Source of the DNA: Planctomycetia bacterium
GTDB taxonomy: Bacteria; Planctomycetota; Planctomycetia; Pirellulales; Thermoguttaceae
NCBI GenBank assembly: GCA_030527205.1
Contig: JAUNBG010000009.1
Span: 1-64,000 of the forward strand
Direction: 5' to 3'
DNA length: 64,000 nucleotides
Part shown: positions 20,535 to 32,539 of the stretch, piece by piece
Layout of the letters: the number at the start of each line of letters is the position of its first letter
Position numbering within the stretch: the first letter of the stretch is position 1
The notes under the pieces: generated by a model
What the model was told of the DNA's origin: nothing
The model's database searches: none
Seen by the model: only the letters and a program-made list of their open reading frames with translations
Position numbers and translations under genes: made by a program

Positions 20535-23500
20535 TTACCAAGAATATTGAGCGCCGGCGCTTCCGCTGACTGTTTGGACATAATCGTTCAATTGAAGGTC
20601 GCAATTTCCAAAGAATTGCAGTCGATCATTAATCGTCCAATTTCCGCCGATGCCGAACATAACGAAATCTCGCCCCAGTCCGTTTCCAACAACCCTGAAC
20701 GGAACGTTTGGATTTCCAGAGAAGGCTGCATAACCATTCGCGCTTGTTTCCAAAAATTCATGAGTCCAGTTCGTATAAACGGAGACATCCAAAAGTCGTC
20801 CTCTCAACGCCATTTCGCGGTTCAATCGAAGACCGAGAACCGATTGCAGACTGTCATAATCGGTTTTATTGCCAATTAAATTCAAACCATTCCAACCGGA
20901 TTCGTTATAATCGTCTTGATGAATAAATGTATATTGAAGTCCGCCATACGGTTGCAGATTCATTTGTCCAAGCCCGAATGTATAGCCTCTTTCGAGATAA
21001 ACATTGCCCGACCAACCGTCCTGACTCGAATCAAAGTTTCCGGCATAAGTTCCAATATTAAAACTGCGATTGGTCGAATAATCCGTAATTCCAAGGCTTC
21101 CCAAAGCCAGACCATAACCGAAACGATCATTCCAACGAAAATAGGTTCCGAAGATATTTTCGTTCAGATCAACCGAACCAATACGCGTTCCCGTTTTGAC
21201 ATCGGAATTGCTATAACTGTAAAAGAGTCCAAATTGTTGAGTCGCATTGGAACCGAGCTCAAGGCCGAAAATTCCGCCCATTAAATTATAATCGAAACCA
21301 GAAGTCTGTTTATGACTGTCGACATCGCCGGACATCCCATAAACCGACATCCAACCGCTCAGGCCGTTTCGTTCGATCATTTGTCCGCGAAGAATGGAAT
21401 TGCTTCCGGTTGAAGCCCGCGGCGTTACTTTTTGGCTCAACGATTGACGAATTTGCGTTCGATTAAGCATTTGAGCGGTTATTGCTGAATAACGAACTTC
21501 GCCGCTTAATTCTCCAACGACATCAGGATTGTTTATCTGTTCGTTTTCCAATGCATTGAGGAATTTTCCAAATTGTTCCGACAAGTTTGGATCATCAGCC
21601 CAACGCGCTAAAGCCATTCCAACGCCTCGTCCATTATTGGACAGAACGTTGTCTGTATAGTTGATCTTCTGCCAGATCAGATTGAATTGCCTGTTGTTTT
21701 CCGTATTCATGACAAATCGTTTTCCAACGACGTTATCAACGACAGACAACTTTTTAATATTGGCGGACAAATATCCGTTTTCTGTGTCAAAAATGGTCAG
21801 CCTGGTTCCTTCTTCAATTTCGTTGTTGAGGTTAACCTGAAACGTTCCGCCATTCAATGCAATATTTCCGTCGGTTGTTTGAAATTTCGTGTAATTATCT
21901 TCGTTTTCAACATTAATATCAACAACGCTTCCTGTATTCATTGCAAAAGCATTGGTTCCGGATTCCGCATTCAATGTTGTCGTTGGCGTTCCCTTCAAAC
22001 TCAATGTTCCGTTCAGGGTTAAAGCTCCAAACGAATTCGCCCAACCAGTTAAAGTTGTTCCTGCGGCCGTTATAATATCCGCTTGAGCCAACTGACTATT
22101 ATTTGTTTGATTATCATCCAGAGAATCGACGCCAAGTTGCAAAGTTCCAGCATTGAGCAAAGCTGTATCAAACGCATCGGATCCGTTCAGAATGAGCGTT
22201 CCATTTCCGAGTTTATTCAAAATGCCTTTATCTTTAACCTCTTCGTTATATTCGATTTCTCCGTTAAAGGTTACAACGGCATTTCCTGTATCAATTTGGA
22301 AAATATTATTGGTTGGAGTTTCGCTGTTGTTTACAAAATGAATTGTATTGCCGAGCAAAACATTTCCTGTTGTTCCGCTGATTGTAATGCCGCCGCTGTT
22401 TTGAATGTTAATGTCTTCTGCGCCCCAAAGATTTCCATAAATTCCAGATTCAGGAAGCTCGACGCCTTCATAATTAAGCTCAAGAATACCGGCGCTGGTC
22501 AACCAGGTATCGCCGCGATTTTCAAAATGAGTCTGATTATCTCCCTTTACAAGCAGAGTCGAAGCATTGATTTTTGTCGTTCCGTTGAACATTCCGGATT
22601 TTTCAGCAAGAGAACTCGCTGCTCCAGATTCCAAAGCAACGGTTCCGCCGCCAGAAATCGATAAAATATCCGAGCCATTCAAATTTGAAATCGATAAGGT
22701 TTTTTCGGACGCAACCTTGATATTTCCATTTCCTTGTAAGATCAAGGTTCCTAAGTCATTATCCAGGAAAACCGATAATAACGTTTCTTTTCCCAAATCA
22801 ATAGTCGATTGGTTGCCGACCGATTTTGAAGACGTTAATTGAAGTTCGCCGTTATCTTCCGTTTTGAAAATTCCGGCCCAATTGTCATTATTTCCTGAAA
22901 GTTGCCAAGCTTGCAATGAAGGTTCCGCGTCGTCTTCTGCGGCAGCATAAATGTTTTGGAAAAGAACTGTTCCTTTCCCTGAAAAACCGCTGCGAATTTT
23001 GGTTATTGTATTAAGATTGCTCAATGTCAACGAACTGTCGGTTCCAACAACGATCTTTGTGTTTGCCGTTGAAGCATCCAAATTATCTAACGAAACAGTT
23101 TGGCCATCATGAACTTTGATGCCGCCTCCGTCTTCCAATTTAACCAAAACGGCATCAACAACGGAATCGTCATTAAGCGTTTTTTGGTTCAATCCATTCT
23201 GATCCGTTAATCCGAGATAACCGCCGCCAACCGTTATTTGACCGATATTGCTTGCCCCGGAAACTCCGTTATCGACAAGATTCAGCGTCCAAACGCCATT
23301 TCCTTTTTTAATAATATTGACTTTTCCGGTTTCCGAAGGTTCGTCAAGCGAATCGGCAATAATTCCTGTATAAGAACTGTCGGCGTCGCTGTTGATTGTC
23401 AGCGATTTTTGCCCCAGAACAACCGCAATGCCGTTGGCGCCTTCTGCTGAAGAAAGAGCGCCGAGCGTTACATTTCCTGTCGCGGAACCGTTCGCATTGG

Positions 23501-26078
23501 AAAGATCAAAAATTCCGGATTTTAATCGAGTTTCGCCCTTATACTGAAGATTTCCTGTAATGGCAAGAACATTCGAACTCTCAGACAAATCAATCAAAAG
23601 TCCGCCGTTTCCGGAAAGGGTTCCGGTTAGTTTTAAATCTTGATGATCATTTGTTATATTTAATAGACCGGCATCCAAATTAATATTGTTGCCAAGAACA
23701 ACTGGAGACGTTTCTTCATAGCCATTGGCATTCCTGATAATTTGTAAAACCGTTTGATCTGTTAAATTCGTTATAACAGCATTGCCTAAACTGTTATACC
23801 AATTACCGGAACCGCTCCATTCTTCCGTTTCTTCATTATAGATTCCCGTTTCCCGTTCGGCAAGAACTCGCAACGTTCCTTGATTTAATTGAATTTCTGA
23901 AAAATTGTTCGCGTTTGCTGCAACTCGTCTTTTCGTCTCGGAATCAATTCCTGTATTAGAAATTTCCAAAACCTGTTGCGCGTTATTCATATTCATTTGA
24001 AGAACGCCTGTTGCCTCGCTATTTGTCGAATCGGTTTTAATTTGTCCAGAAAGAACGACGTTTCTGCTCGAATCAACGTCGGAAGCAACGCCGATTCTCA
24101 TCGGTTCGGTTCCCGAAAGCAAAATATTATTGGCAATAGTTGCTGATCTGTTTTCATCAAAAGCATCGTTGCCAACTTGCAAAGAATTCGCCTGATCGAC
24201 ATTATATTCCGTTTGACCAAAGAGAATCGTTCCGTCGCCCAACGCGCCTTCATGATCCATTTGGATTGTTCCGCCCAAAATCTTTGTTGTAAAAATATTG
24301 GCAATATTCGTTGACGATCCGGCATTAATGGTTGCCCCGCGATTATCGCTGGCAATCCTCAAAATTCCGTTTCCTTCTTTAATTAAGGAACCATTGCCTG
24401 TCGCGTCAACAATTGTTCCGCGATAAACGGAATTTCCGTCTTCGCTTCCTTGCGAAACGGTCAAATTATTCCCATTCAAATTGACAGAACCGTTGCCGCT
24501 GGCAGATTCGCTCCCTTCGGATTCCAAAGAATCGCTATAAAGATTTTCGACGCTTTGATCCGCATTGAGTTGAAACGCTCCGTTGTTGACAACCAGATCG
24601 GAATATTGACTGATTGCATTTTCCGTTGCGGCAATAATTTTTCCTTCATTGATCGTTGTATTCCCGGAATAAGACGACGCGGAATCATTATTAATATCCA
24701 AAACAAGAGTTCCAGAACCATTTTTAACAATTCCCCCTTTGTTGGAATCTTGATAAACGCCGACATTCTGCGTTGCTCCGGCATATCCGCCAATATTGTC
24801 TCTGACAATAACTTGAGCCTCGCCTTGAACATCAATTGTTAAATCGTCTTTAAGGAAAATCGCATTTCCGATTCCTTCGCCATCTTGAGCATTTCCGCTA
24901 TAATCCGGCATTCCCATTATCGAACCAGCATTTCCGCCTTCGGCGCTATTTCCTGAAAAAACAGTTGATCCGTTCGAATAAACAATAGAAACATTCGCTC
25001 CTTCTTCAACAAAAAGAGCTCCGCCCAAACCAGCGCCGCCGCCTCCAACGCCGCCGCCTGTGACTGTCGTTGTCAAATCTGATTGATAACCGCCATTTCC
25101 GGCCGCAAAACCGCCAACGCCGCCATTATTTTCATCGGAACCGCCGCCGCCTCCGCCGCCGAAACCGCCTAAACCTCCCGCAATCAAACCAGCGCCTCCG
25201 CCGCCCCCTTCGCCGCCATCGCCGCCATAATAAGTTGAAGCGCCTCCGCCGCCGCCATAACCGCCGTCGCCGCCGACAAGACCGGATCGACCGCCTTCTG
25301 TATGCGGTTCCCTATTCCAACCTTCCGGTTCTTCGCCTTCTTCATAAGGAACGCCGCCGCCATTTCCCGCTGTAACGCTTCTTTCATTCAATCCGGCATT
25401 GTTGCCTTCGCTTCCTTGATAACCCGTTCCGCCGCCGTCGCCGACAACAATATCCGAATTGGGCTCTGTAACAATATCGCCGCCGCCGTCAACACTCAAG
25501 CCGCCGCCGCCTCCAACCGCATGACTTTCCGCAAGAATTGAACCGCCGTCGCCGCCATTGGCCTGATTATTCTCAAAAGAGACGTCAATCAATCTAATGT
25601 CGCCGCTTCTGGCATAAATCGCGCCTCCTGCCCCTAATCCGCCGCCGCCAGTAACGCTTCCTGAACCGCCTTGTCCCCCTTCCGCAACGCAATTTTCAAA
25701 GGAAAGTCCCTCGATTTCGACGCTCGAATTCGTTCCTGCTGTATCAATATAAAAACCGCGATATTCCCCCGTTCCGTTGATTGTTCCGTTATTAACGCTC
25801 GTTATTGTCAGGTTATAATCGTTATTCCCAAGAATAGCTGGAAGATCGCCCGCAAGATTGATCGTTCCGTCAATTTCAATTATTGTATTTCCGGAAGAAC
25901 CCGAATTAAAATTGTTGATTGCGTTACGAAGTTCTGAATAGCTCGAAACGCGGATTGATTCGGCGAATGATGAATTCGCTATTCCCAATAATCCGCCCAT
26001 CGCTATTAATAAAATAGCGATTCGACGACATTTTCCGGAATTTCGTTTCTGTTGACGCTTCTTTTTTGAATAATTCAT
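20535..26078 (-). CDS. Giant autotransporter (type V secretion) with beta-helix passenger
   Basis: The protein has 1847 residues from the ATG at 26078, chosen because GGGAG lies 7 bases upstream; an ATG five codons earlier lacks a site. A basic N-terminus and signal segment (IAILLIAMGGLLGIANSSFAES) cover about 40 residues. The passenger starts with a pectate-lyase-like part, then a Gly-rich, Phe/Tyr-poor stretch (about 130-390, for example GGFGGGGGGG). Repeats of the form KxGNGxLxLxxxxx...GTLxLG follow, matching passenger-associated transport repeats. The last ~290 residues are an autotransporter barrel (SGWMSVYGMSGDVDSH onwards) ending in an aromatic residue, SAGAQYSW. This implies outer-membrane insertion and surface display or release. 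Ligand or role unknown; adhesion is only a guess. Confidence 0.9.
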   Translation of the reverse strand: MNYSKKKRQQKRNSGKCRRIAILLIAMGGLLGIANSSFAESIRVSSYSELRNAINNFNSGSSGNTIIEIDGTINLAGDLPAILGNNDYNLTITSVNNGTINGTGEYRGFYIDTAGTNSSVEIEGLSFENCVAEGGQGGSGSVTGGGGLGAGGAIYARSGDIRLIDVSFENNQANGGDGGSILAESHAVGGGGGLSVDGGGDIVTEPNSDIVVGDGGGTGYQGSEGNNAGLNERSVTAGNGGGVPYEEGEEPEGWNREPHTEGGRSGLVGGDGGYGGGGGASTYYGGDGGEGGGGGAGLIAGGLGGFGGGGGGGSDENNGGVGGFAAGNGGYQSDLTTTVTGGGVGGGGAGLGGALFVEEGANVSIVYSNGSTVFSGNSAEGGNAGSIMGMPDYSGNAQDGEGIGNAIFLKDDLTIDVQGEAQVIVRDNIGGYAGATQNVGVYQDSNKGGIVKNGSGTLVLDINNDSASSYSGNTTINEGKIIAATENAISQYSDLVVNNGAFQLNADQSVENLYSDSLESEGSESASGNGSVNLNGNNLTVSQGSEDGNSVYRGTIVDATGNGSLIKEGNGILRIASDNRGATINAGSSTNIANIFTTKILGGTIQMDHEGALGDGTILFGQTEYNVDQANSLQVGNDAFDENRSATIANNILLSGTEPMRIGVASDVDSSRNVVLSGQIKTDSTNSEATGVLQMNMNNAQQVLEISNTGIDSETKRRVAANANNFSEIQLNQGTLRVLAERETGIYNEETEEWSGSGNWYNSLGNAVITNLTDQTVLQIIRNANGYEETSPVVLGNNINLDAGLLNITNDHQDLKLTGTLSGNGGLLIDLSESSNVLAITGNLQYKGETRLKSGIFDLSNANGSATGNVTLGALSSAEGANGIAVVLGQKSLTINSDADSSYTGIIADSLDEPSETGKVNIIKKGNGVWTLNLVDNGVSGASNIGQITVGGGYLGLTDQNGLNQKTLNDDSVVDAVLVKLEDGGGIKVHDGQTVSLDNLDASTANTKIVVGTDSSLTLSNLNTITKIRSGFSGKGTVLFQNIYAAAEDDAEPSLQAWQLSGNNDNWAGIFKTEDNGELQLTSSKSVGNQSTIDLGKETLLSVFLDNDLGTLILQGNGNIKVASEKTLSISNLNGSDILSISGGGTVALESGAASSLAEKSGMFNGTTKINASTLLVKGDNQTHFENRGDTWLTSAGILELNYEGVELPESGIYGNLWGAEDINIQNSGGITISGTTGNVLLGNTIHFVNNSETPTNNIFQIDTGNAVVTFNGEIEYNEEVKDKGILNKLGNGTLILNGSDAFDTALLNAGTLQLGVDSLDDNQTNNSQLAQADIITAAGTTLTGWANSFGALTLNGTLSLKGTPTTTLNAESGTNAFAMNTGSVVDINVENEDNYTKFQTTDGNIALNGGTFQVNLNNEIEEGTRLTIFDTENGYLSANIKKLSVVDNVVGKRFVMNTENNRQFNLIWQKINYTDNVLSNNGRGVGMALARWADDPNLSEQFGKFLNALENEQINNPDVVGELSGEVRYSAITAQMLNRTQIRQSLSQKVTPRASTGSNSILRGQMIERNGLSGWMSVYGMSGDVDSHKQTSGFDYNLMGGIFGLELGSNATQQFGLFYSYSNSDVKTGTRIGSVDLNENIFGTYFRWNDRFGYGLALGSLGITDYSTNRSFNIGTYAGNFDSSQDGWSGNVYLERGYTFGLGQMNLQPYGGLQYTFIHQDDYNESGWNGLNLIGNKTDYDSLQSVLGLRLNREMALRGRLLDVSVYTNWTHEFLETSANGYAAFSGNPNVPFRVVGNGLGRDFVMFGIGGNWTINDRLQFFGNCDLQLNDYVQTVSGSAGAQYSW

Positions 26079-26415
26079 TTGGCGCTCCCGCATTTTTATT
26101 TATCGAAACCTTTTTATTCGGCTTTTTCTTTTGAGCTTTTTTCAACTGAAAGGACAAAATAATTGGAAAGGGTTTGTCCAAGAACAAGGCAACTTTTAAT
26201 TCAATTGTTATAACTAATAATATAAACAAAAGAGTTTTATCTATGCTAATTCGGATTATCGTCAAAAATGACCGAAAACTTTTTAGAAAAGCTGTAAAAT
26301 TTTAATGATTATTGCTTTTTTTTGCAATATGACTTTTTTGTCGAAAAAAACAAAATTCTGTTTATTGCAGCTTTGATTATTTTTCGCGAATAAGTTCCTT
26401 TCATTAAATAAAAAC

Positions 26416-28475: not shown

Positions 28476-29825
28476 ATGAGTCAGCAATATCAATTTCAAC
28501 AGAAAACCGTTTCGAGCAGTTCATCCTTTTCCGATGATTTGAATGAAAGAAATGACGATAATCTTTTGTTGATCAATAACGAGGCTTTTTCGCCCAATTG
28601 GATGAACGAAGAACTTGATAATAAAGAAAATTCGGCTTATCCTTTGCCAAGAATTGTTGCTCGAATGCCAAAATTGAAGCTTTCGAATTTGGATTATGAA
28701 CAACGTCAACATTTTGGCAAAACGATCTTTGTTCTTTTGGCGTCCCAAAAAAAACGTTGGATCAGCATTTTTGGCGGAATTATTCTTGTTGCGGTTATTT
28801 TCGGAATTTGGAAGAATCCCGAAGAAAAGATCGATTTACCGATTTCTTCTCAGGAAAGTCAAATTGAACCGGCCATTGTTTTCGATTCCGAACGTTCCAA
28901 TTTGTCGAAAAACGCTCTCGCTGTAATGCCATCGAACGCGATTAAAAGCTTGAGCGACCAACAGAACGCCTTTCCTGCTGATTATTCTATTAATATCGAA
29001 AATGATCAAAATAATGACGTTTTAACCGCTTTGCATTTTGATGCAATGAATCCCCCCAAGTCGGTTTATTCGTCAAATGAACCTTCTTTTGACTCTGCTG
29101 GGTTTTCGGAAAATTCGACATCCATTGAGAATTCTTCTTATGAATCGTCATTTCCGAATGCTCCCTATTCGTCAGAAAATTTTTCTCAATCGAATTTTAA
29201 TTTGCCCCAATCCGAATCCAATGTCCCGTCTCAATATTTTGACAATTTCAATTCGACAAACAATGAGGAAATTTGGATCAACGACGTTCCTTTCAATTAT
29301 TCTTCAGCAAACCAACGTTCAAATTCTTCTCCTTTGAATAATCAAACAAATAATTCGTTTAATAACCAATCAAATATTCAAACAAATGTTCAAATGAGTT
29401 GGACCGATTTGCAGAACGAGCCATTATTGGACAACAATGGTTACAGCAGCAATGATTCGAAACAGTCAATGAAAAACGAATTGCAACGCTTTACGCCAAC
29501 AAGTCGGAACACTCAAGACGTTCGTTATCATTTAATGCCCAATAATAACTCAAATCAATATAACAATAATCAAAATAATGTTAATATGAATCAGGGAACC
29601 CATTCGTTTGCTCCGAATCAGAACAACAACTTTCCGATCAATTCAAACAGAATGGGCAATCAATCTGTTCAAGACTCTTCGATGAATGAATCGAACTTTT
29701 TTAATCAACCAATTAACAATAATAATTATTCCAATAATGTTTCTCCCAATCAGAATTATCAAGGACAAAATCAAACAATAAACTATTCATCAAGCAATCA
29801 AGGTTTTAGCCAATATCGTCATTAA
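28476..29825 (+). CDS. Asn/Ser-rich single-pass membrane protein of unknown function
   Basis: I recognise no family. The 449-residue chain has a cytoplasm-like N-terminal ~90 residues, a basic flank and one membrane segment at about 95-112 (WISIFGGIILVAVIFGIW), then ~330 residues of Asn/Ser/Gln-rich, likely disordered sequence with runs such as NQYNNNQNNVNMNQ. The layout suggests an N-in, C-out protein whose tail extends into the periplasm. It precedes a CpsD-like ATPase and an ExeA-like AAA ATPase on the same strand. By position it could be the membrane anchor or chain-length-type partner of those ATPases; this is inference. A GAGAG site lies upstream of the ATG. Confidence 0.75.
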   Translation: MSQQYQFQQKTVSSSSSFSDDLNERNDDNLLLINNEAFSPNWMNEELDNKENSAYPLPRIVARMPKLKLSNLDYEQRQHFGKTIFVLLASQKKRWISIFGGIILVAVIFGIWKNPEEKIDLPISSQESQIEPAIVFDSERSNLSKNALAVMPSNAIKSLSDQQNAFPADYSINIENDQNNDVLTALHFDAMNPPKSVYSSNEPSFDSAGFSENSTSIENSSYESSFPNAPYSSENFSQSNFNLPQSESNVPSQYFDNFNSTNNEEIWINDVPFNYSSANQRSNSSPLNNQTNNSFNNQSNIQTNVQMSWTDLQNEPLLDNNGYSSNDSKQSMKNELQRFTPTSRNTQDVRYHLMPNNNSNQYNNNQNNVNMNQGTHSFAPNQNNNFPINSNRMGNQSVQDSSMNESNFFNQPINNNNYSNNVSPNQNYQGQNQTINYSSSNQGFSQYRH

Positions 29826-30202
29826 TACAAATCAGATATCTTGGTCTTTTTAACAATATTCCTTAAATAATTGGAATAAAATCATTGAATTGTTTTTCGA
29901 GCAATTCAATAAGTTTATTAAATCCAGAACGAAACATTTCGTTTCATACAGAAATCGCAAAGGACGACAGATTTTGTCCTTTGCGTAATGAACCCATCAA
30001 TCTCGGATTTAAAAACAAAAAGGTTAAGAAGATTCAACTGACTTGAAATTGATATTGTTGTTCAATATGTAAAAACGTTGAATGACAATTGAAAAAAGGC
30101 TTACTAAAATCGGTTTTATAGCGAACGATTGTTCTTGAAATACTTGATTTTTGTCTTATATGAAATGCAGCGTTAAAAATCATAAACGATAATGGATTCA
30201 AA
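29826..30202. other. Spacer with hairpin
   Basis: Contains a strong stem at 29956-29985 (CGCAAAGGACGAC/GTCCTTTGCG) without a good T-run. It could be a terminator, an RNA-processing site or an attenuator between the membrane-protein gene and the ATPase genes. No ORF is supported. Confidence 0.45.
29956..29985 (+). terminator. Hairpin, possible terminator
   Basis: CGCAAAGGAC pairs with GTCCTTTGCG over a ten-base loop. A U-run is missing, so termination efficiency is doubtful. Confidence 0.4.
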
Positions 30203-31657
30203 ATGTCTTCTTTTGATCGAGTTTTTTTAAAAGTTTTTCCCAATGAAAACGAAGCCGTTTCTTCGTTAAACGTTGCGGAATCCATATCAACGGTTGACTC
30301 AAACAAAAAAGAGAACGGAAACTTTGTTCTTGATGAGTCCAAATCAGAGCTGTTCGAATCAATTGATAAAGAAAAACTCAATCAATCGGAATCTGTTTCA
30401 GAAAAATTCAATTCCAAGGAAATCGAGAAACCTCAAACATTATTTTTTGAAGATTATGCGCAAAAAAGATTTCATTCGTTTTTTAACGAATTGAACGATT
30501 CGGAGGCTTTGTCGAATCCAAACGATTCATTTGACGAATCAACAACAAAAAATTCAAAAGAAAACGGTTTTATTCAGAAAATTGAAACGAATTCAACAAA
30601 AGTTTCCTTTCAAAATTCAGCAAAGATATCTTCTGATTATCGGTCAGAAATTCTCAAATTAACCCCGCAACGAGAGACAATTTCGCCACAGGAAAATGAA
30701 ATGTCCGCCGTTATTATTCCGATTCATGATAACGCCTTTATTGCTTCGCAACAGGATTTTGTTTTACCAACCGGAAAATCTAAAAATAATCTTGAAATAA
30801 CGCTGGATAATCAGGACGAAATAGAATCTCAACGAATTAATCAACCTTCAAATGATTATTTTTTAAATAATTCAAATACTAATTTTCAAGGCGATAAATT
30901 TCCTTCTGAAGGCAATGTTTTCTCCCTGGAACAAACAATTTCTTTAAAAGAATTGCAAATAAAACATTTTCCGAGCATTTGCGATGAAATGTTTCAAAAT
31001 GCTTCCGTTCAATTGAGCGCTTTAGGCAATGCCGTTTATGAAGAAATATTGGCGGGTCATAAGATCATCGGTTTTAATGGCCTGAGCAGTCAATCAGGCT
31101 GTTCAATCATTTTGCTTGGGCTCGCTGGCGAAATGTTGTCGAGAGGACTTAGCGTTCTTCTGATTGACGGCAACTTTGAAAACCCGTCCTTAGCTTCGTT
31201 ATTGGATATCAATGTTCAAACAGGTTGGGAACAAGCCGTTCTGAATCATCAATCGCTTGATTCCGATTTAATAAAAATCAAAATTGCCGTCAATTCGGAT
31301 GAAACCGTTTTGTCAACAAGTTGTTTGCCGCGAATTTCTAATCTGGATAATGCCTTTCTTTATCTTCTTCCTTTATCAAAAGGAACCGTTTTGAAAGCGA
31401 TTAAAGCAAGTTATCATCCGGATTTGAATAAAATGATTCATCAGATTTCCGATCAGTTTGACCTTATTCTTTGGGATTCAGGTTGCTCTGACGTTTCGAT
31501 TCAAGAAAAAATATCAGAAATGAAACGTTTTCGAGAAGACGGTTATTATCTGGTTCAGGATATTCGCTTGAATAATCAAAGACATATTCAACAATTGGTT
31601 ACAGAAAGTTCCCGCAGCAATATCCCTTGTTTAGGCATTATAGAAAACTTTGTTTGA
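30203..31657 (+). CDS. CpsD/MinD-like ATPase with degenerate P-loop and disordered N-terminal half
   Basis: Residues 1-240 are Ser/Asn/Glu-rich and look disordered. The C-terminal ~240 resemble the P-loop domain of CpsD/CapB-type tyrosine kinases (BY-kinases) used in polysaccharide export. The usual Walker A Lys is missing: the loop reads GLSSQSGCSI (about 293-302) after KIIGFN. Walker A' is VLLIDGNFENPSL and the Walker B-like strand is LILWDSG. There is no C-terminal Tyr cluster. The fold is therefore recognisable but classical ATP hydrolysis is doubtful. The next gene starts 9 bp downstream, so the two are co-transcribed. In exosortase/PEP-CTERM loci similar ATPase pairs occur, but no polysaccharide genes are in this window. 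Confidence 0.7.
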   Translation: MSSFDRVFLKVFPNENEAVSSLNVAESISTVDSNKKENGNFVLDESKSELFESIDKEKLNQSESVSEKFNSKEIEKPQTLFFEDYAQKRFHSFFNELNDSEALSNPNDSFDESTTKNSKENGFIQKIETNSTKVSFQNSAKISSDYRSEILKLTPQRETISPQENEMSAVIIPIHDNAFIASQQDFVLPTGKSKNNLEITLDNQDEIESQRINQPSNDYFLNNSNTNFQGDKFPSEGNVFSLEQTISLKELQIKHFPSICDEMFQNASVQLSALGNAVYEEILAGHKIIGFNGLSSQSGCSIILLGLAGEMLSRGLSVLLIDGNFENPSLASLLDINVQTGWEQAVLNHQSLDSDLIKIKIAVNSDETVLSTSCLPRISNLDNAFLYLLPLSKGTVLKAIKASYHPDLNKMIHQISDQFDLILWDSGCSDVSIQEKISEMKRFREDGYYLVQDIRLNNQRHIQQLVTESSRSNIPCLGIIENFV

Positions 31658-31666
31658 GAGAAAATC

Positions 31667-32539
31667 ATGTATACAAAATATTGGGAACTCCAAAAAAAAC
31701 CGTTTGAATTAGGTTGCGATCCAGCTTTTTTCTATGCTGGCGAAACTCATCTTGCCGTTTTGCTCAAATTACGCTATACAATTGAAAATCGACGGGGCAG
31801 CGCTCTTTTTTGCGGAACGCATGGGACAGGAAAATCGATGATTGTTTCCATGCTTTCGCGATATGGAACGAATATCTGCGGATTAGGTCCGTTTATTAAT
31901 TTAGGAATGCCTGTTTTTCAAACCGATGATATTTTATTATATCTGGCCGATTCAATGAGTCGACTTAATCCAGAAATAAAGGGAAACGATCCGGGATTTG
32001 CAGAAATATCGGAAATGCCTTGGGGAACCCTGAATTCGTCTGGATTATATCGCGCTTATTCCATAATCGAACAATTTTTAATAGAAAATTCAGAAAATCA
32101 AAAGCATACTGTTTTATGCGTCGATGATTTTCATCAATTAAACGATCCCAATATTTTAACTTTATTTAAATCTTTAATGGAGTTGCAATATCGTTGTCGT
32201 CCAATTCTGTCGTTAATATTAATGACGACGTCCGCGTCAAGGCTTTCTCCGTTGAGCGATCAATTTGTTGATTATTTTATCGAGACAAAAGCGGAAATTC
32301 CCTCTTTAGATTTTTCAGAAACCGAAAAATATATTCGACATCGACTCGAGATTGCAGAAGCGACTCGCGAGATTTTTTCGCCTGATTCGATTCCCTTGAT
32401 TTATGAAATAAGCAATGGAATTCCGCGAAAAATTAATCGAATTTGCGATCTTGCTTTGTTAATTGGTTATGCTGAAAAAATGCCGCAAATTACGGAAGAT
32501 GTTATCGAATCTCTCAACCGCGAATTGGTTGCTTCTTGA
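31667..32539 (+). CDS. ExeA/GspA-like AAA ATPase
   Basis: The 290-residue protein starts with the family signature YTKYWELQKKPFELGCDPAFFY. It has Walker A GTHGTGKS (about residue 48), Walker B VLCVDDFH and the C-terminal lid with GIPRKINRICDLAL. ExeA-type ATPases help place type II secretin or polysaccharide machinery across peptidoglycan, and a close group accompanies exosortase loci. Here there is no peptidoglycan-binding domain. GAGAGAAA precedes the ATG, and the gap to the CpsD-like gene is 9 bp. Together they probably form a cytoplasmic ATPase pair acting on a membrane complex; the partner may be the Asn-rich membrane protein upstream. Confidence 0.85.
   Translation: MYTKYWELQKKPFELGCDPAFFYAGETHLAVLLKLRYTIENRRGSALFCGTHGTGKSMIVSMLSRYGTNICGLGPFINLGMPVFQTDDILLYLADSMSRLNPEIKGNDPGFAEISEMPWGTLNSSGLYRAYSIIEQFLIENSENQKHTVLCVDDFHQLNDPNILTLFKSLMELQYRCRPILSLILMTTSASRLSPLSDQFVDYFIETKAEIPSLDFSETEKYIRHRLEIAEATREIFSPDSIPLIYEISNGIPRKINRICDLALLIGYAEKMPQITEDVIESLNRELVAS

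Follow-up and report, generated by a model that had tools for sequence, protein, structure and literature searches.

A lysine-less BY-kinase-type protein, an ExeA-type ATPase and a one-pass membrane protein form a conserved gene module in planctomycetes of the order Pirellulales

The three genes and their conservation

The DNA analysed here is a 64,000-nucleotide stretch (positions 1 to 64,000 of the forward strand of contig JAUNBG010000009.1, assembly GCA_030527205.1), referred to as the window, from a Planctomycetia bacterium of the family Thermoguttaceae (Pirellulales) whose genome is about 90% complete. It harbors three genes on the same strand, encoding a membrane protein with a single predicted helix (gene 1), a CpsD-like protein with the predicted fold of a bacterial tyrosine kinase (BY-kinase) and no lysine in its P-loop (gene 2), and an AAA+ ATPase of the ExeA / TIGR03015 type (gene 3) (Table 1). 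Genes 1 and 2 are separated by 377 nt and genes 2 and 3 by 9 nt. Inspection of the open reading frames (ORFs) bore out the coordinates and the 9 bp spacing given in an original prediction for this locus.

Table 1. Features of the three-gene locus (window positions; all on the + strand).
Feature	Position	Strand	Basis or conservation
Gene 1, putative single-pass membrane tether, 449 amino acids	28476..29825	+	ORF
Gene 1 cytosolic motif IVARMPKL (family consensus VLARIPDL)	28653..28676	+	alignment
Gene 1 transmembrane helix	28758..28811	+	hydropathy
Gene 1 C-terminal tail, degenerate A-R-F-x-G-x-I-E	29757..29822	+	by-eye comparison with the tail at locus L117
Gene 2, predicted BY pseudokinase (CpsD-like), 484 amino acids	30203..31657	+	ORF, fold model, residue alignment
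Gene 2 N-terminal helix motif MSSFDRVFLKVF (family M-x-x-L-D-Q-A-F-I-K-A-Y)	30203..30238	+	regular expression
Gene 2 BY-kinase-fold domain	30935..31654	+	AlphaFold2 model, VIA-align
Gene 2 lysine-less P-loop GLSSQSGCSI, residues 293-302	31079..31108	+	alignment
Gene 2 Walker A' VLLIDGN	31154..31174	+	acid kept in 98/98
Gene 2 Walker B LILWDSG	31463..31483	+	D in 98/98
Gene 3, ExeA / TIGR03015-type AAA+ ATPase, 290 amino acids	31667..32539	+	ORF, profile matches
Gene 3 Walker A GTHGTGKS	31814..31837	+	K in 88/88
Gene 3 Walker B VLCVDDF, Asp for the usual Glu	32111..32131	+	E 77, D 10, N 1 of 88

The conservation of the locus was analyzed in several genome sets. A single-sequence search detected a relative of gene 2 in 45 of 60 genomes, the own genome included. 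A contig scan with gene 3 yielded 272 encoding stretches, the best 80 of which were kept for analysis, and in 67 of these best 80 a relative of gene 2 preceded gene 3 in the same orientation. After near-identical loci had been merged and four loci outside the order set aside, a non-redundant set of 103 loci was obtained. Genes 2 and 3 were adjacent at 83 of them (median gap 25 bp), whereas 15 carried gene 2 only and five gene 3 only. These loci were recruited through matches to gene 2 or gene 3, so the frequency at which the whole module is absent cannot be measured from them. A membrane-protein gene was located upstream in 92 of the 95 testable loci, and a plain hydropathy window, used for all helix counts, predicted exactly one transmembrane helix in 87 of these 92 proteins. 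Distances between the gene 2 and gene 3 proteins co-varied (Mantel r 0.73, n=83), a value that none of 2000 permutations reached, as expected for vertical co-inheritance.

In a less biased sample of 156 genomes of the order, a gene 3 match of at least 231 bits was obtained in 99 genomes (a count of match rows), the next best match scoring 183 bits. High-scoring gene 3 matches were lacking in the family codes f8 and f10. In a sample of the phylum, 387 of 392 genomes had some match, and those among the listed rows were mostly frames of 700-900 amino acids, as Wzz-BY-kinase fusions have; full-length matches above 170 bits were confined, among the matches listed, to the order and one genome of the same class (G432). 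The trio is thus a module kept across the order with its gene order retained, which supports the suggestion of the original prediction that it is a separate unit; in particular, the membrane-protein gene is conserved beside the two ATPase-like genes.

A BY-kinase-type protein that lacks the catalytic residues

Among Pfam and NCBIfam models, gene 2 matched only BY-kinase-type models of NCBIfam, all of them below the cut-off. The AlphaFold2 model of its C-terminal domain was of high confidence (predicted local distance difference test score, pLDDT, 92.0; predicted template modelling score, pTM, 0.89), and BY-kinases were ranked first by Foldseek and VIA-align. The VIA-align Z scores were 22.1 for Wzc K540M (root mean square deviation 2.5, 203 residues aligned), 21.8 for CapA1B1 and 21.7 for VpsO, compared with 14.9 for the best MinD-like chain, FlhG. 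When the family profile was compared with the sequences of solved structures, VpsO was again the best match (E 9.6e-25), BceF and CapB were matched as well, Wzc scored lower, and MinD was among the matches. The rows of the fold search did not include TadZ, an absence that excludes nothing.

Compared with active BY-kinases, gene 2 shares the fold and lacks the Walker A lysine, the tyrosine-rich C-terminal tail and ExxRxxR, the helix motif that precedes the P-loop of active BY-kinases. Among 98 non-redundant family members, the position of the P-loop lysine was occupied by C (35), R (32), A (16), T (6), V (5), S (3) or I (1) and never by K, while the preceding glycine and the following serine or threonine were kept in all 98. 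The acid of Walker A' was D in 93 members and E in five, and the Walker B aspartate was invariant. The last 30 residues contained no tyrosine in 72 members and a single one in 26. ExxRxxR was found in none of the 98 but in 17 of the 28 control rows. In the three congeneric copies the lysine position is taken by C, A and C, whereas two Wzz-BY-kinase-type fusions encoded elsewhere in the own genome are both lysine-bearing. For the lysine, the 28 control rows were reduced to 19, as six (L092-L095, L097 and L101) were members of the module and three were duplicates; 16 of these 19 non-redundant controls from outside the module carried the lysine and three did not.

Because the lysine, the tyrosine tail and ExxRxxR are absent throughout the 98 members while the Walker acids stay, the gene 2 product is, on sequence and predicted fold, a BY pseudokinase and not the product of a strain mutation. 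A sequencing error or a strain-specific loss was rejected, given that no member has K. The original prediction had described GLSSQSGCSI as a P-loop without lysine next to retained Walker A' and B strands, and had suggested that one ATPase-like subunit of the trio is degenerate; both descriptions agree with the family, in which no homologue with a normal P-loop lysine was found among the 98. The three lysine-less controls (L089, L098, L104) are large Wzc-type proteins outside the module, indicating that loss of the lysine in the phylum extends to some Wzc-type proteins beyond the module.

The region preceding the kinase-like domain comprises about 245 residues and is mostly unstructured, in line with the 240-residue disordered head predicted originally, except that the first 12 residues form a conserved helix motif, followed in the family by a variable unstructured linker. 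The motif or a variant of it was present in 75 of 92 complete members, with a mean of 0.015 and a maximum of one in shuffled sequences. The regular expressions for this and the other motifs were chosen after inspection of the alignments, and the starts of several CpsD-like ORFs are uncertain owing to upstream extension, which affects the motif counts. In a model of a short full-length relative (L141), the head was unstructured apart from a helix at residues 4-11 (pLDDT about 41-46) and gave no docking signal. The motif was absent in 12 of 14 members at loci without gene 3, compared with five of 78 at loci with gene 3 (Fisher p 1.4e-9, kinship ignored); mapped onto the gene 2 domain tree, the presence or absence of gene 3 switches nine times. 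Since the motif is missing mostly where gene 3 is missing, the N-terminal helix is read as a lead to a possible docking site for the ATPase.

Partner proteins and genomic neighbors

Gene 3 matched TIGR03015, the model of the ATPase associated with XrtA/PEP-CTERM systems, with 115.3 bits and thus below the curated cut-off of 324.5; the same model was matched by all 36 gene 3 relatives compared with it. The motifs of this ATPase had been called intact. This holds for the P-loop, whereas the second acid of Walker B is an aspartate where 77 of 88 relatives have glutamate. Aspartate at this position was also observed in the genus of the window and at four of the five non-redundant loci without a pseudokinase gene (L151, L168, L179, L183). 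Pfam matches of gene 3 were of the AAA type only and gene 1 had none, so that no peptidoglycan-binding domain was found in either protein. At seven loci without a pseudokinase gene (L151, L152, L161, L169, L176, L183, L184), the ATPase gene is followed on the same strand by a gene for a membrane-anchored protein of about 364 amino acids, whose L151 copy we take, from its look rather than from a family search, to resemble an SGNH hydrolase.

The gene 1 protein has one transmembrane helix (residues 95-112), which is rich in Lys/Arg on its N-terminal side, and is predicted to be oriented with the N-terminus inside. It gave no match in Pfam or NCBIfam, and with a single helix and no such match a Wzz-like nature was rejected. 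Two short motifs recur among the 92 upstream membrane proteins. The V-L-A-R-I-P-D-L expression matched 33 of them (shuffled mean 0.7), and the C-terminal A-R-F-x-G-x-I-E was present in 31 (shuffled mean 0.1); the tail motif also occurs at loci without gene 2, as AWLTGSIE and similar forms. The asparagine-richness that the original prediction had used to define this protein did not prove to be a family trait: asparagine makes up 18.3% of the residues here compared with a median of 3.2%, and is a local matter of lineage composition.

Neighboring genes were surveyed by all-against-all clustering of 750 neighbors in 107 loci, the clusters being named from sequence without a family search except for the GT-C genes. 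In the window itself, a Pfam scan of ten ORFs revealed no polysaccharide-assembly or secretin gene adjoining the trio. Downstream of the module, same-strand multi-helix proteins recurred, and eight of ten tested matched PMT, PMT_2 or GT87 at E<=0.01, two of them above the curated cut-off. When 32 downstream genes were tallied by Pfam in general, the families were merely scattered; the GT-C signal emerged only after multi-helix proteins had been selected. With a profile trained on these genes, 16 of 99 loci were found to have a GT-C glycosyltransferase gene immediately downstream of the module in the same orientation, and these loci span the family codes f1, f2, f14 and f16 among the coded genomes; the two other matches of this profile in 1328 kb were likewise downstream on the same strand. 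The statement that the locus lacks polysaccharide genes therefore applies to the window trio, but not to this minority of related loci.

In 33 of the 107 loci, L077 among them, the module is preceded by a divergently oriented gene that we take from its sequence, without a family search, to be metH-like and that likely marks the ancestral chromosomal place of the module. Kinase-like genes, named in the same way, also recurred among the neighbors. No recurrent secretin or type II secretion neighbor was recognized in the clustering of the 107 loci. Elsewhere, the own genome carries one Poly_export gene and two secretin ORFs. On its contig C102, an ORF of 1745 amino acids with a secretin domain (155.7 bits; L223:3704-8941) encodes a very large secretin, near which an ORF on the opposite strand (L223:1-2506) is presumably PilM-like, by look and without a family search. 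An exosortase (PF09721) was detected in 128 of the 156 order genomes. None was found in the own genome, as far as its roughly 90% completeness reaches, nor in the module carriers G001, G005, G006, G051, G262, G384 and G396, and f8 genomes have an exosortase and lack the module. The exosortase thus does not track the module, and both the exosortase link considered originally and an accessory role of the module to an exosortase were rejected on co-occurrence. Within the window, an 1852-amino-acid protein encoded at 20535-26093 on the minus strand contains an autotransporter beta-domain (Pfam, E 7.3e-47), which is unexpected for a planctomycete.

Proposed function and alternatives

What is secure is the anatomy of the module, comprising the order of its genes and their co-inheritance, the predicted fold, the lost residues, the motifs and the linkage to GT-C genes at a minority of loci; the docking pairs, the binding of nucleotide and a role in glycan assembly are inferred. 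Precedents are two BY pseudokinases, EcpK of Myxococcus xanthus and HfsB of Caulobacter, the latter concerned with the holdfast. Both are needed for polysaccharide assembly, and EcpK is proposed to act as a scaffold that contacts a co-polymerase directly, according to the passages of PMC12004946 that deal with them. Like these two, as characterized there, gene 2 is a stand-alone BY-kinase fold without catalytic lysine or tyrosine tail that may act by binding. Unlike EcpK, which in the same passages lacks all three Walker motifs, it keeps the acids of Walker A' and B. The partner of EcpK and HfsB is described there as a polysaccharide co-polymerase of class 2 (PCP-2) of the Wzx/Wzy pathway, whereas a one-pass tether and an AAA+ ATPase are found here without such a cluster. 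That the neighboring gene 1 encodes a PCP-2 (Wzz) protein is not borne out by the single helix in 87 of 92 loci and the blank Pfam result, but an unlinked PCP-2 is conceivable.

We propose that the trio is a phosphorylation-independent scaffold with an AAA+ motor for envelope-glycan assembly, which would work in the manner of EcpK and HfsB with a one-pass tether in place of the co-polymerase; we put the probability of this reading at roughly 40%. Gene 1 would be an inner-membrane tether whose short cytosolic part carries a docking motif and whose single helix is followed by a long flexible outer tail ending in a short motif. As the residues for phosphorylation and the tyrosine tail are absent, binding is the expected mode of action of gene 2, and the acids left in Walker A' and B may hold a nucleotide. 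The N-terminal helix of gene 2, attached by the flexible leash, would probably grip the gene 3 ATPase, which would supply the energy, and the globular domain of gene 2 would probably read the tether. Most likely, the trio would serve an enzyme complex for envelope glycans, which it would assemble, position or gate without tyrosine phosphorylation; the likeliest partner enzyme would be a GT-C glycosyltransferase. Binding and even hydrolysis of nucleotide by gene 2 appear possible by analogy, because TadZ of Eubacterium rectale reportedly retains ATPase activity without both lysines, as far as the accounts in PMC10482377 and PMC13170226 describe it. A more specific version, a planctomycete-specific phosphorylation-free machine in which the lysine-less adaptor couples the AAA+ motor through the leashed helix to the one-pass tether and an extracytoplasmic glycosyltransferase, seems doubtful to us.

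Several observations weigh against the proposed scaffold. Gene 1 is not recognizable as a Wzz-type co-polymerase, and no GT-C gene lies directly downstream in 83 of 99 loci. GT-C homologues of the genus of the window were not seen linked to the module, the own copy being a weak match on another contig, and the GT-C profile was trained on adjacent genes and may miss distant copies elsewhere. The recurrence of the metH-like gene indicates that neighbors can persist by synteny alone. Independent contrasts between motif and gene 3 number two on well-supported branches and eight on all, which does not suffice for significance; averaged over 200 pairings along the well-supported branches, the motif followed gene 3 in 1.8 of the two contrasts and went against it in none. 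In one clade lacking gene 3 (L196-L199), moreover, a form of the motif persists.

The layout of the trio also recalls GspA/GspB (ExeA/ExeB), in which an ExeA-class AAA+ ATPase accompanies an inner-membrane protein that spans the membrane once and has a variable tail. On this basis, ATPase and tether could insert or hold a secretin or other channel through the cell wall, with the pseudokinase placing the channel as TadZ/CpaE do for the Tad secretin. Tether and ATPase indeed occur without gene 2 at five of the 103 non-redundant loci and at 13 of the best 80 stretches, and secretins are present in the own genome. GspB, as portrayed in the relevant parts of PMC9239104, has one helix and a very variable length and is encoded beside gspA, and some GspA proteins lack a periplasmic part. 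Gene 2, as a protein of the MinD/BY-kinase class, shares its loss of the P-loop lysine in the service of an envelope machine with TadZ, the CpaE homologue, whose Walker A is deviant, and CpaE localizes the secretin, as presented in sections of PMC13170226 and PMC10482377. A secretin gene is, however, missing from the recurrent neighbors, the 290 residues of gene 3 match AAA models only and thus offer no peptidoglycan-binding domain, and gene 1 has no HR domain match in Pfam, which a very diverged fold could escape. The pseudokinase is an addition to the GspA/GspB layout, and it departs from TadZ/CpaE in that a receiver domain was not seen (judged on the L141 head model), Tad genes were not recognized among the recurrent neighbors and the fold is nearer to BY-kinases than to MinD/ParA. 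We consider such a channel factor unlikely, though worth keeping in view.

The kinship of the fold to MinD, FlhG and ParA, together with vertical inheritance and the budding for which the order is known, would be compatible with a device that positions polar growth or budding and uses a MinD/ParA-like fold for localization. This is improbable: BY-kinases are the better structural match, no division gene was recognized among the recurrent neighbors of the 107 loci, and the lack of high-scoring gene 3 in f8 and f10 speaks against a part of a universal division machine. Genes 2 and 3 belong to the same superfamilies as the kinase (TIGR03018) and ATPase (TIGR03015) of the XrtA/PEP-CTERM core and resemble these models, which might suggest an exosortase-type exopolysaccharide core with its remaining genes elsewhere. 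Scores below the curated cut-offs (for gene 3, 115 bits against 324.5) and the loss of the kinase residues set the module apart from that core, and the carriers without exosortase, in which the module evidently needs none, and the f8 genomes without module already largely refute a proposal that we hold to be very improbable. Even less credible is that genes 2 and 3 are decaying, functionless remnants kept by synteny. The loss of kinase residues and the lack of gene 2 or gene 3 in some lineages would fit decay, but both genes stay open over great divergence, the P-loop glycine and serine or threonine and the Walker B aspartate of gene 2 are as invariant as the P-loop lysine of the ATPase, and the own genome keeps lysine-bearing BY-kinases beside gene 2.

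BY pseudokinases are already known as such; searches of the open-licence literature turned up neither a paper on this module nor one in which such a protein is combined, order-wide, with a one-pass tether and an ATPase of the ExeA type. The titles of solved structures include laboratory lysine mutants, Wzc K540M and CapB K55M; here an entire order has naturally fixed a loss at that same position while retaining the protein. The module is therefore an evolutionary test bed for a BY-kinase fold working without phosphorylation. Should the adaptor-motor machine be real, it would differ from both polysaccharide co-polymerases and secretin assembly pairs and would define a new class of assembly apparatus. 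Planctomycetes with holdfasts are described in a part of PMC7716919, which would make the holdfast a natural candidate product of the module. If the docking motifs hold, they would provide a simple handle on a planctomycete envelope machine.

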